Assembly: GCF_022179805.1 (NCBI RefSeq)
Contig: NZ_BPUO01000013.1
Location: forward strand, 1 to 64,000
Reading direction: 5' to 3'
From: Cupriavidus pauculus
GTDB lineage: Bacteria > Pseudomonadota > Gammaproteobacteria > Burkholderiales > Burkholderiaceae
DNA: 64,000 nucleotides
Shown here piece by piece: positions 59,889 to 64,000 of the stretch. The first letter of the stretch is position 1, and the number at the start of each line of letters is the position of its first letter. Below the pieces are notes generated by a model. The model did not search any database. It saw only the letters and a list, made by a program, of their open reading frames with translations, and had not been told where the DNA came from. The position numbers were made by a program, and so were the translations under genes.

Positions 59889-60866
59889 TCAGCTCTGTCG
59901 CTGCAGCGAGAACGCGCACAGTTCGATCAGTGTGTTCTTGAGCGGCGAATCCGGAAGCAGCATGGCGGCGCGCTCGGCGGCTTCGGCCTCTTTTTGCGCG
60001 GCGGCGAAGGTTACCTCCAGGGCGCCGCTGGCATGGATGGCCGAGAACACGGCATCGAAGTGCTCGGTGCCGCCCTGGACGATGGCGTCGCGGGCAAGTT
60101 CGCGCTGTTCGCTCGTGCCGTGCTCCAGCAGGTGCAGCAGCGGCAGCGTGGGTTTGCCTTCGCGCAAATCATCGCCGGCATTCTTGCCCATCTGCTCGGC
60201 GCTGGCCGTGTAGTCGAGCATGTCGTCGATCAGCTGGAAGGCGGTGCCGATGCGGCGGCCGTATTCGGCGGCAGCTTCTTCCATGGTGGCATCGGCGCCG
60301 GCCAGCACCGCGCCGAGTTGCGCCGACGCCTCGAACAGCTTGGCCGTCTTGTAGCGGATCACCTGCAGGTAGCGTTCCACGGTGACGTCGGGGTCGTGCA
60401 TGTTCAGCAACTGCAGCACTTCGCCCTCGGCGATCACATTGGTGGCGTTGGAGAGAATCTCCATGATGCGCATGCTGCCGGCATCCACCATCATCTGGAA
60501 GGCGCGCGAATAGAGGAAGTCGCCCACGAGCACGCTGGCGGCGTTGCCGAACACGGCATTGGCCGTCTGGCGGCCGCGGCGCAGCTCGGATTCGTCCACC
60601 ACGTCGTCGTGCAGCAGGGTGGCGGTGTGGATGAACTCCACCACGGCGGCCAGTTCATGATGGCGATGGCCTTCGTAACCGAACGCGCGCGCCGACAACA
60701 GCAGGATTACCGGGCGCAGGCGTTTGCCGCCGGCGCTGATGATGTATTCGCCAATCTGTTCGACCAGCGGGACTTCGGACGACAGGCGTCGGCGGATGAC
60801 TGCGTCAACGGCGCGCATGTCGGCAGCGACCGGGGCAAGCAAGGCAGTGGCGGAAGACTGGGACAA
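59889..60866 (-). CDS. ispB: Octaprenyl (polyprenyl) diphosphate synthase
   Basis: A 325-aa all-trans prenyltransferase that makes the ubiquinone side chain. The first Asp-rich motif is LLHDDVVDESELRRG, the second is FQLIDDMLDYTAS, with ISAGGKRLRPVILLLSARAFGY and TAKLFEASAQLGAVL between or before. I chose TTG 60866 (MSQSSATALL), with GGTGA 7 bases upstream. The frame stays open further upstream, but that sequence is the 3' end of a group II intron (its domain V), so a 357-aa start is not real. The leader is interrupted by that intron, inserted in the same orientation. Confidence 0.92.
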   Translation of the reverse strand: MSQSSATALLAPVAADMRAVDAVIRRRLSSEVPLVEQIGEYIISAGGKRLRPVILLLSARAFGYEGHRHHELAAVVEFIHTATLLHDDVVDESELRRGRQTANAVFGNAASVLVGDFLYSRAFQMMVDAGSMRIMEILSNATNVIAEGEVLQLLNMHDPDVTVERYLQVIRYKTAKLFEASAQLGAVLAGADATMEEAAAEYGRRIGTAFQLIDDMLDYTASAEQMGKNAGDDLREGKPTLPLLHLLEHGTSEQRELARDAIVQGGTEHFDAVFSAIHASGALEVTFAAAQKEAEAAERAAMLLPDSPLKNTLIELCAFSLQRQS

Positions 60867-60925
60867 GATGAGATCACCGTTTCGGGAGGGTAGGAGGAAC
60901 CCATTGCTGGATCCCTCCCCCCTAA

Positions 60926-60960
60926 GAACCGTACGTGCGAGTTTTCCCCGCATACGGCTC
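60926..60960 (-). ncRNA. Group II intron domain V (catalytic hairpin)
   Basis: On the minus strand it starts GAGCCGTATGCGGGG and ends CACGTACGGTTC. Complementary arms GAGCCGTATGCG and CGCACGTACGGTTC form the 34-35 base hairpin with the AGC catalytic triad and the 2-base bulge. This identifies a splicing-competent type intron. Confidence 0.92.
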
Positions 60961-60982
60961 AAGCCTCTACAAAATGTATGAG

Positions 60983-62683
60983 TTACTCAAACACCGGCTT
61001 CACTGCGACTCTGCCGTAGTGATGAACCTGGACATGGCAGTCGGGATGTACCAGTACACGATTGCTTAGAGCGTCGGACCCGCCTACTACTCTGGGTTCG
61101 ATGTGGTGGTCATGCCACCCGGTCTCTTTGCTTATCGCGCTGTGACACACCGCGCACAAGCCTCGCTGGGACATGAACAGCTTTGCCCACTGCTTCCGGT
61201 ACGCCATGCTTTCTGCCATGCGTTCCTGCCGCAGCGTTTCGCCATACATTTCCTGCGCTGGGTCGAAAGGGTTGTAGTCCCCCCGCACCTTCTTGTGCCT
61301 CCGGATAGGCGTACTCGGGATCGAATACAGTCCTTTCCAGTAGCGTTCGCCAGCCTTGTTCACTTCCGTGGAACCGAACACCCAATTCCGATCATCGATT
61401 GATGCGAAGTATTTCTTTCGCACCCATTCAACTTTCTTTCTTCGATGCCGCCGTTTTGCCCACCTCCATAGCGCCCTAAATATCAGGTGCTCCATTCGGG
61501 TGAACGTCGCCTTCGCAACCACTGGGCTGTGATACTGCGCCCAGCCCCTGAGCATCGGGTTAAGCGTTTGGACTAGGTCCGCCTGCTTTCGTCCGCTGTG
61601 AGCACTGATGACCTCCTTGACCTTGCAATAAAACGTTTGTGCATTCTTCTTGCTCGGTTTGATGAGCAGGGTTCCCGAGTACTTCCGGAAATTCCACCCA
61701 AGGAAGTCAAAGCCTTCGGCGATGTTGACGATTCGCGTTTTCTCCGTGGACAGCGAAAGCCCCCTTGTTGCTAGGAACTGTTCCACCCACGGCTTCACTT
61801 CGTTTTCTAGGACTTCCGGCGTGTTGCCGGTGATCACGAAGTCATCCGCATACCGTACGACATTCACTTTCAGCTTCTTCGTGTTGGCTACTCCCAGCTT
61901 TGCCCGTAGGGACTCGGCCAGTTGTTGTTCCAACCCATTCAGTGCCACGTTAGCCAAGGTCGGGGAAATGATGCCCCCCTGTGGCGTTCCAGCGTTGGTC
62001 GCCTGAAACTGGCCCTGAAATACCACGCCAGCTTTCAGCCACTTCCACAGGATTGCTTTGTCCATCGGGACATTGCGCTCCAGCCAGTCGTGGCTGATAT
62101 GGTCGAAACACCCTTTGATATCCGCTTCTAGGATCCATTGGGCCGAAGCCTTTCTGGACAAATTGACGAATAGCTGGGACATGGCATCCGCCGTGGATCG
62201 ATTGATCCGGAACCCATAGGAGTTTGGATCGCTCGTCCCTTCGGACACTGGTTCCAGCGCCAGCAGATACAACGCCTGCATGACTCTGTCCAACATGGTC
62301 GGGATGCCCAGAGGGCGCTCCTTTCCGTTGGCCTTGGGGATGTAGACCCGCCTTAACGGCAGCGGGCGGTACCCCCGGTGCTTCAACCGCCCGATGGCTT
62401 CCCATCGGGCTTCGGGCGATTTCCACTTTTCGCGGTCGACTCCTGCCGTCCGCGCACCCTGGTTCATCGCCACTCGCCTTACCGCCGATGCTTTGGCGGA
62501 AAACGAGCGGGTCAGGGATCGTTGCAGGGCTTTCACCCGGCGCCAATCTCTGTCCTGTGTTGCCTTCGCAATTCGAATCTGCATTGCTCGAACATTCCGT
62601 TCGACGCGGCGCCAATTGATGTCGCCCCATCGTTGCGGGATGCCAGAGGGCGCAGATTCATCCTCTCGGATCAATACTTCCAT
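60983..62683 (-). CDS. ltrA: Group II intron reverse transcriptase/maturase with HNH endonuclease domain
   Basis: A 566-aa multifunctional protein that assists splicing and drives retrohoming. Reverse-transcriptase blocks are intact: PKANGKERPLGIPTMLDRVMQ, LEADIKGCFDHISHDWL, GTPQGGIISPTLANVALNGLE and VRYADDFVITG with the YADD active site. The maturase X domain (GFDFLGWNFRKY, then LNPMLRGWAQYHSPVVAK) follows at ~320-440. The C-terminal HNH domain has CAVC near the start, the pair DHHIEPRVVGG, and HPDCHVQVHH. No frameshift or stop. ATG 62683 follows AGGAGAG. The domain set and YADD suggest a chloroplast-like (CL) class intron. Confidence 0.95.
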   Translation of the reverse strand: MEVLIREDESAPSGIPQRWGDINWRRVERNVRAMQIRIAKATQDRDWRRVKALQRSLTRSFSAKASAVRRVAMNQGARTAGVDREKWKSPEARWEAIGRLKHRGYRPLPLRRVYIPKANGKERPLGIPTMLDRVMQALYLLALEPVSEGTSDPNSYGFRINRSTADAMSQLFVNLSRKASAQWILEADIKGCFDHISHDWLERNVPMDKAILWKWLKAGVVFQGQFQATNAGTPQGGIISPTLANVALNGLEQQLAESLRAKLGVANTKKLKVNVVRYADDFVITGNTPEVLENEVKPWVEQFLATRGLSLSTEKTRIVNIAEGFDFLGWNFRKYSGTLLIKPSKKNAQTFYCKVKEVISAHSGRKQADLVQTLNPMLRGWAQYHSPVVAKATFTRMEHLIFRALWRWAKRRHRRKKVEWVRKKYFASIDDRNWVFGSTEVNKAGERYWKGLYSIPSTPIRRHKKVRGDYNPFDPAQEMYGETLRQERMAESMAYRKQWAKLFMSQRGLCAVCHSAISKETGWHDHHIEPRVVGGSDALSNRVLVHPDCHVQVHHYGRVAVKPVFE

Positions 62684-63850
62684 GCTGCTCTCCTATCTTG
62701 AGGACTTCCCCAAACAGCAGAGACAACATGCCCCTTTGGGGGGGCATGTCACCCCCCAAAGGGAAGAAAATTAAACAAGCGAGTTCAGTCAGCCGTCTTG
62801 CGACGAAAGACCAGTTGGAAGTCTGCCCGCTTTCGCGTGAGATGATGTTTCAACCCCTATCCAGACAATTACAGCCTGGCGTTCGCTTTTTCCAACCTCC
62901 CATACCCGCACAGCCAACAGCGTCCCTTACGGTTCGCTTGCCTGAGTCAACTACACTCCGGCAGCTATACGGGCTTACCACGTTCCCTGCGCATTACACG
63001 ACTGGGTTAGAGTCTGCCTCTCCGCCGGTGGTCATACTAGCGACGTGTCCCGAGTTTTGAGCGGGGCATCCGACCACGTACCTTTTGGTTAGTGCCTATC
63101 AGCAGCTTTGGCACCGCAATCCTTACGACGTTTATCAGCAGTTCACTTTCGTTACCCATACCAGCCAGCCCGCACCTCGACCCCTTTGCTGCTGGGAGCC
63201 TCTACATCCCCACCTCACGGCGTGGACGCACCCTTACGGGGGGCAGCGTTGTCAGGAGAGCTTCACACCCCACCGTTACCAGTGACGCATGTCTCCTTAG
63301 GCTACTGCTAGTCGCATAGCAGGTTCTCTATCGAGGCACCCTCTCGGGTGTACTCGACCGAACCATAACGCGCAGAGCTATCCGCTCCGGGAACCTCACT
63401 TCATTACTTCAGTGCCTCCATACTGGCAGGCGCTTGACGGCAGACGGACTCCTGCGAGCCCGTGATCTGCGTCCCAAAGAACGTAGCGCCGACCCAATTG
63501 GGTCGGTTCAAATGCTATGTAGCAGTGATGCAGCAAAATTTCGCCGCACACCGACCCGCACCTACCGAAGTAGGGCGCCTACAGAGAATCTGCCCAAAGG
63601 CAAGACTCCCCGCCTCTGGGCAATGGCTGGACATCCATCCAGCAATAGCAAGCTGCAAGTCAGCCGATCCGCTGGCCTTCCCGTAACACGAAGACGCGCT
63701 CCAGCCTGATGGCTGGTGCTTGTCGCAGTAAGAAATGGTCGAGATTAGACGGTTCAGGACGAAGCCTTCCCCTTGTCTCAACAAAGGTCGATGCTCAATT
63801 GAGCCTGCTCGCTCATAGGCGAGCTAACGGACACGAAGTACGTGTCGCAC
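62684..63850 (-). other. Group II intron domains I-III
   Basis: The 5' 1167 bases of the intron carry no gene. They contain many local stems (GCTCG/CGAGC near 63823-63806, GCTCA/TGAGC near 63802). The inverted stretch at 62728-62765 (GCCCCTTTGGGG type) is probably part of domain IV. All short reading frames here in either direction are shadows of structured RNA. CAAAAC (minus strand 63059-63054) is complementary to the last six 5'-exon bases GTTTTG and is a candidate EBS1. Confidence 0.75.
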
Positions 63851-63862
63851 CAAAACCGGTGG

Positions 63863-63868
63863 ATTATA
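63863..63868 (-). promoter_or_regulatory. Candidate -10 element of ispB
   Basis: A perfect TATAAT on the minus strand, 12 bases before the intron 5' end. No convincing -35 (GCCATG at 17-base spacing), so support is moderate. Confidence 0.5.
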
Positions 63869-63991: not shown

Positions 63992-64000
63992 GTCGCCATG

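Follow-up and report, generated by a model that had tools for sequence, protein, structure and literature searches.

In a 64,000-nucleotide (nt) stretch of Cupriavidus pauculus DNA (the window), from contig 13 of a 6.8-Mb genome, a group II intron lies between a promoter and the start codon of ispB, the gene for octaprenyl diphosphate synthase. The gene occupies positions 59889..60866 of the minus strand and starts with TTG, as it also does in relatives; its product scored 425.3 bits against NF008140 (cut-off, 412), and because the sole other IspB match in this genome is 32% identical, ispB looks single copy. Two Rfam matches were obtained on the minus strand, i.e., the strand of ispB: group-II-D1D4-7 (RF02012; 63173-63323, 115.1 bits) and the group II catalytic intron (RF00029; 60885-60962, 63.3 bits). 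Both exceed the gathering score, so that each end of the intron has a group II RNA match.

The junctions were fixed by the empty site of relatives. At the intron-free locus of genome G041, CATATAATCCACCGGTTTTG runs directly into CGAAACGGTGATC, whereas the window reads CATATAATCCACCGGTTTTG, then GTGCGAC...CTACCCTCC, then CGAAACGGTGATC; this gives a full-length intron of 2966 nt on the minus strand (60885..63850) with its first base at 63850 (GTGCGACACG) and its last at 60885 (CTACCCTCC). Upstream, the -10 hexamer TATAAT (63868-63863) is separated from the intron by 12 nt (CCACCGGTTTTG, 63851..63862), and downstream, an 18-nt 3' exon leader (CGAAACGGTGATCTCATC, 60867..60884), also seen in empty relatives and containing a Shine-Dalgarno-like GGTGATC, leads to the TTG (60866-60864). 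Empty sites were sought at ispB, ribF, and erpA, each time in the 30 best-scoring loci from 60 genomes. Among the ispB loci, 29 were readable (L025 was not), with 6 occupied and 23 empty, and TATAAT is kept in all 23 empty loci, which makes the intron younger than both the promoter and the leader. An earlier note on this DNA had placed the intron in the orientation of ispB, downstream of a TATAAT element and ahead of the start codon of this normally essential gene, with its 5' end at 63850, and all of this held; its 3' end, put at 60888, moves to 60885. The note had also allowed that relatives might reveal the ispB promoter inside what it called domain I, but intron-free relatives keep TATAAT just upstream of the empty site.

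The intron begins with the GUGYG of group II introns (GTGCGACACG at 63850). At its 3' end, the usual AY is replaced by TCC, with the other group II features present; the 59 Cupriavidus copies described below end in TCC (33), TAC (19), AAC (5), or GCC (2), so that 24 have AY. The TCC end is a deviation within the intron family, and the boundary is backed by a pairing of the 3' exon given below. Domain V (60926..60960, minus strand) carries the loop GAAAA, and domain VI (60885..60925, minus strand), placed from the sequence and from the end of the RF00029 match at 60885, contains a candidate branch A at 60891, the seventh base from the 3' end. The intron-encoded protein (60983..62683, minus strand; 566 amino acids [aa]) matches the RVT_N, RVT_1, maturase (GIIM), and HNH domains, contains YADD, and scored 377.7 bits against the group II reverse transcriptase/maturase model TIGR04416 (cut-off, 300). 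It is at least 565 aa long in 54 of the 59 Cupriavidus copies.

Intron copies behind -10 hexamers

A whole-intron search matched 35 of the 60 Cupriavidus genomes. Of the 63 matches of at least 1,700 bases, 61 were kept (G040:C182 and G014:C86 were left out), and L102 and L103, whose 5' ends were unreadable, were dropped, leaving 59 copies. With TANNNT taken as the -10 pattern, the GTGCGA start lies 10-12 nt past TANNNT in all 59. Grouped by downstream gene, these copies make up 19 sites, and TANNNT stands 10-12 nt upstream in every one; the gltX group comprises two insertion positions, one base apart. By comparison, TANNNT occupies the same place at 0.69% of flanking positions (394 of 57,147) and at 1.1% of positions close upstream (27 of 2,470), for a binomial P of <1e-37 over the 19 sites, a calculation that treats sites as independent, which is true only in part. 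The earlier note had regarded the location as an oddity of this locus; instead, the same position is the rule across the intron lineage, and a lucky single insertion at ispB is ruled out by 19 sites alike.

The genes behind these introns are diverse. Besides ispB, downstream products above the NCBIfam cut-off are those of gltX, ribF, hflK, argC, secB, rpiA, erpA, ahcY, lpxO, and argF and a TRAP substrate-binding protein; an alanine-aminotransferase-like and an FKBP-type protein fall below it, and lapA, GDT1, MFS, and EamA proteins were recognized by Pfam. A sense open reading frame (ORF) of at least 109 aa begins within about 235 nt at 18 of the 19 sites. No intron is present at 27 of the 30 ribF loci or at 26 of the 30 erpA loci, and TANNNT is in place in every empty locus. 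The genome of the window holds two further long copies, L074 and L104 (contigs 6 and 7), before rpiA and ahcY, each behind its own -10 hexamer.

At ispB, the intron was found in at least 6 of the 60 genomes, a count that may be low, with at most five candidates scored per genome. Among the six carriers, the intron is 94.3-99.8% identical, compared with 86.7-97.3% for ispB and 77.8-96.4% for the 500 nt upstream, and the intron is more alike than ispB in all 15 carrier pairs, a pattern on which simple vertical inheritance of the ispB copy was rejected. For example, G046 and G047 share 99.1% identity in the intron and 91.7% in ispB, and the closest ispB relative of G046 among the compared loci (G041, 95.8%) has an empty site. 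This pattern of identities fits spread between species into the same ispB site.

The association reaches beyond Cupriavidus. Genomes were scanned with an alignment of 18 intron proteins, the best 80 loci were taken, and a quick tree was built from 90 proteins (L117-L186 plus 20 Cupriavidus copies, with L107-L116 excluded; L065 and L066, of another intron family, were not used as controls). A proteobacterial clade of 68 entries emerged, with a Shimodaira-Hasegawa-like approximate likelihood ratio test (SH-aLRT) value of 84. Within it, TANNNT lies 9-12 nt upstream in 64 of 66 readable entries (46 at 10 nt, 12 at 11, 3 at 12, and 3 at 9), two entries lacking it and two being unreadable; the entries are not all distinct sites. 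Outside the clade, none of 15 readable entries has it, with 7 unreadable (Fisher P = 1.7e-14, kinship ignored). Among the genera that carry members of the clade are Burkholderia, Paraburkholderia, Pandoraea, Caballeronia, Duganella, Collimonas, Acidovorax, Leptothrix, Roseateles, Stenotrophomonas, Pseudomonas, and Stutzerimonas. The genes behind these introns include secA, uvrC, tig, guaB, ndk, ubiE, argH, ppsA, and ubiX (above the NCBIfam cut-off) and ptsN and lptD-like proteins (below it), and in two Acidovorax records (L152 6849 and L153 4556) the intron lies between a -10 hexamer and tRNA-Leu, with the junction 5-6 nt before the tRNA.

Sites were identified for 9 of the 15 outsiders: five sit within the groEL stop codon (L162, L165, L170, L184, and L186), two behind the stop codon of electron transfer flavoprotein-ubiquinone oxidoreductase (L157 and L158; L158 scanned), and the remaining two (L142 and L143; L142 scanned) follow the stop codon of an OmpA-family gene. 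The distance from intron start to protein is 900-1289 nt in the clade versus 628-650 nt in six outsiders; the clade and the nine other outsiders have some 250-660 nt extra before the protein compared with those six. Stop codon insertions also occur inside the promoter clade (L141) and next to it (L142 and L143), which suggests that targets have switched between stop codon and promoter.

Pairing between the intron and promoter DNA

When the first 1,200 nt of 30 introns were scanned for complementarity to exon positions -20..-1, only two regions stood well above noise, one at intron nt 792-798, complementary to -7..-1, and one at nt 728-734, complementary to about -14..-8. These correspond to exon-binding sites (EBS) 1 and 2, whose exon partners are the intron-binding sites (IBS). 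In the window, EBS1 is CAAAACT (nt 792-798; 63053..63059, minus strand), pairing with GGTTTTG at -7..-1, and EBS2 is GGATT (nt 729-733; 63118..63122, minus strand), pairing with AATCC, i.e., positions 4-6 of the -10 hexamer plus the next two bases. The AAT that ends TATAAT (63863..63868, minus strand) is therefore part of IBS2, the CC that opens the 12-nt stretch completes it, and the GTTTTG that closes this stretch is IBS1.

Covariation was assessed at 47 sites selected for TANNNT (19 from Cupriavidus and 28 others). Each position of IBS1 (-6..-1) is paired at 43-47 of the 47 sites, and the EBS2 pairing holds at hexamer positions 4, 5, and 6 and the next two bases in 46, 47, 47, 47, and 45 sites; in 2,000 shuffles, the counts for positions 4 and 5 and for the two bases after the hexamer were never reached. 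An EBS2 that constantly reads TATAAT is ruled out, as EBS2 varies with these same four bases. A constant distance between IBS2 and the junction likewise fails to fit: at the 10 sites with 11-nt spacing, the register locked to the hexamer pairs 5.0 of 5 positions versus 1.5 for the register locked to the junction, and at the two sites with 12-nt spacing the values are 5.0 and 1.0. The EBS2 register thus tracks the hexamer, while the gap between IBS2 and IBS1 floats. The window copy has both marks of the proposed promoter-targeting lineage, as it begins 12 nt past TANNNT, within the 9-12 nt range, and its EBS2 is locked to the hexamer (GGATT/AATCC).

EBS3, a single G in the window (nt 831; 63020, minus strand), pairs with the +1 C of the 3' exon. 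Across sites, nt 831 and +1 form a Watson-Crick pair in 43 of 44 cases (16.8 expected), which supports the 3' junctions, and single-base EBS3 pairing with +1 is a IIB-type trait. In the -10 hexamer, the neighbors of T6 in the EBS2 helix covary and T6 is constant, which makes it seem that a factor other than RNA pairing maintains T6; this factor also seems to demand T1 and A2, which lie outside the helix. One of the 59 Cupriavidus copies, L094, shares EBS1 and EBS2 with the fkpB introns but occupies a different site (TACTATGCCCATGTTC), again behind TANNNT, and seems to have moved there recently, the new site being promoter-like.

Proposed homing to promoters and competing explanations

These observations most probably reflect a mobile group II intron lineage that homes to the start region of sigma-70 promoters, with ispB as one of many hosts. 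In the route we propose, the ribonucleoprotein (RNP) would recognize promoter DNA through EBS2 on the 3' half of the -10 element plus two bases, EBS1 on the six bases before the junction, and EBS3 on +1, while T1, A2, and T6 would be demanded by another factor, either the intron-encoded protein or sigma/RNA polymerase. The intron would then reverse-splice into the sense strand about 4-6 nt past the expected transcription start, and its HNH domain would cut the opposite strand, second-strand cleavage being the general role of this domain in group II introns. The new copy would be transcribed from the host promoter. At ispB, the usual -10 spacing predicts a start near 63857-63856 and hence a 5' exon of about 6 nt in the RNA; excision would restore the native short leader, joined as GTTTTG-CGAAACGG, and unspliced RNA would still hold the host ribosome site and start codon. 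Host genes should stay expressible because the promoter and the ribosome site both survive, and the insertion would cost an essential gene little because excision restores the leader and even the unspliced RNA retains what translation needs to begin.

Several points weigh against homing to promoters. T1, A2, and T6 were fixed by selection in the 47-site set, although the counts over 59 copies and 66 entries were unfiltered; TANNNT was sought on the strand of the intron only; and the sites of related introns are not mutually independent. Transcription starts are assumed from spacing after the -10 element. No -35 consensus was found in the 19 aligned Cupriavidus sites, and a pattern scan for promoters did not detect the ispB promoter itself, which has a poor -35. 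L094 has no recognized downstream gene. Support for the clade is modest at SH-aLRT 84 in a quick tree, and both of its exceptions count here: L141 lies directly after the stop codon of rpmG, and in L178 the hexamer is CACAAT, with a sequence fitting EBS2 present. Two terminator-like hairpins on the intron strand (62764-62731 and 63623-63590) could hinder read-through into ispB; the four such hairpins in total are not in excess of the 3.1 expected. Lastly, the GAAAA loop in domain V of the window copy, together with a 3' end of CC rather than AY, could impair its splicing.

One possibility, for which we see the balance as even, is that the lineage has evolved a promoter-finding RNP, with EBS2 effectively serving as a guide to the -10 element and perhaps acting on DNA that RNA polymerase has opened. 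With insertion at about +4 to +6, IBS2 would be part of the DNA target but never transcribed, the 5' exon would be only 4-6 nt long, and homing and splicing would use different exon information. A serious competitor, judged to fall just short of an even chance, is that the protein recognizes T1 and A2 (and also T6) simply as DNA bases and EBS1 and EBS2 read the rest, so that promoters would be hit on account of their sequence, with RNA polymerase uninvolved. EBS1, EBS2, and EBS3 explain 12 of the bases read, and a few distal exon bases are described as read by the intron protein in known introns, in the part of the literature consulted (PMC8914252). On this account, however, RNA pairing alone is insufficient for a T6 that stays constant inside a covarying helix, and TANNNT is common, with 205 occurrences on both strands of the 64-kb window (about 20,000 per genome by extrapolation), yet 18 of the 19 Cupriavidus sites precede a sense ORF.

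Entry of the RNP into DNA already melted by RNA polymerase is a more tentative alternative. The span from IBS2 to the junction, about -9 to +4..+6, nearly matches the bubble of an open complex, and IBS2 keeps its register with the hexamer at varying distances from the junction. Sigma flips out A2 and T6 of the -10 element, and T1, A2, and T6, the constant bases here, are those that sigma needs most. Polymerase involvement is hypothetical, though; EBS2 pairing would require release of the bases held by sigma, and recognition of sequence alone predicts most of the same pattern.

For ispB itself, we also weighed whether the window copy is dead for splicing, in which case the unspliced leader or a promoter within the intron would serve to express the gene. 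Three of the six ispB copies, those of the window, G022, and G053, have the GAAAA loop of domain V, with GAAA in the other three and in 55 of the 59 copies overall, and the ribosome site and start codon lie wholly within the 3' exon. GAAAA pentaloops, however, can mimic GNRA loops; the intron protein is intact, domains V and VI are otherwise regular, and the EBS/IBS pairing is kept. The pattern scan gave no promoter-like sites inside the intron or between it and ispB, a weak test as it misses the ispB promoter too. We consider a splicing-dead copy unlikely, though well short of negligible. Survivor bias, by which introns would insert widely and persist only just after a -10 element, where the promoter upstream and the frame and ribosome site downstream stay intact, has a parallel in related introns at stop codons, likewise harmless places, but is improbable given that other harmless spots exist (gene ends, spacers, and dispensable genes), yet all 19 Cupriavidus sites are behind TANNNT, as is the seemingly newly moved L094.

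Two further features of the locus were recorded. The hairpin at 62731-62764 (minus strand) is strong and stands just before the start of the intron protein. Divergent from ispB, a 32-aa ORF (MDKPHASQRRVRRTAWWVAFAALAGFLLADLT) runs from 63998-64000 of the window onward and begins 6 nt after a TATAAT; a small ORF of 31-36 aa is arranged in the same way in 24 of the 30 ispB loci, the other six being the intron-bearing ones. From this spacing, the ORF probably belongs to a leaderless mRNA that encodes a small membrane protein.

Comparison with known introns

The intron at the groEL termination codon of Azotobacter, reportedly described by Ferat, Le Gouar, and Michel in 2003, resembles the ispB intron in occupying an essential gene at a spot where failed splicing harms little, but its place is the end of a reading frame rather than a promoter. 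Introns of group IIC (class C) are described, in the portion of the source seen, as homing after intrinsic terminators (PMC4424553). As in that group, the homing target of the present lineage appears to be a transcription signal and not a single gene, which provides safe sites in any host; group IIC introns, however, lack the En domain and use terminator or attC motifs, while the present lineage encodes an HNH protein and has a -10 element read partly by EBS2. Insertion of the window intron as a group IIC/terminator element was rejected on these grounds, as HNH is present and a -10 element is at the site.

A closer relative is an intron subset with a large 5' insertion, attributed to Michel et al. 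2007 (PMC4465626, PMC4028801) and equated with CL1/IIB1 (PMC4028801), as far as the excerpts go. The clade shares with it extra 5' length, a IIB-type EBS3, and an HNH protein, and from the extra length the clade and the nine outsiders very likely belong to the described subset. The citing passages seen in these sources speak of the insertion and of a member in groEL but not of promoters (PMC4465626, PMC4028801). Promoter sites may nonetheless have been reported for the subset in Michel et al. 2007, a lesser but real chance that leaves priority uncertain. In the open-licence literature, no statement was found that group II introns target promoters, which is no proof of novelty; one study measured the distance of introns to terminators, and the word promoter is absent from the part of it seen (PMC8919778).

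Most bacterial group II introns are said, in the text available to us, to lie outside housekeeping genes (PMC4424553). The lineage described here has the opposite habit, sitting before ispB, gltX, secA, erpA, guaB, and a tRNA gene, where promoter and ribosome site survive. If our reading is true, this would be a new kind of safe harbor beside terminators and stop codons and a natural case of RNA-guided promoter recognition, and the introns would supply natural start-site markers. It would also mean that the exon sequence for homing is separable from that for splicing, and here RmInt1, a standard retrohoming intron, offers a comparison. Its IBS2 is needed for homing and not for excision, and helps when IBS1 is weakened, according to the passages seen (PMC3123198), so an untranscribed IBS2 with a 5' exon of 4-6 nt appears workable. 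The present lineage shares the IBS1/IBS2/IBS3 logic of RmInt1, but RmInt1 has both IBS1 and IBS2 in its RNA, whereas here the expected transcription start comes after IBS2, which would occur in DNA only.

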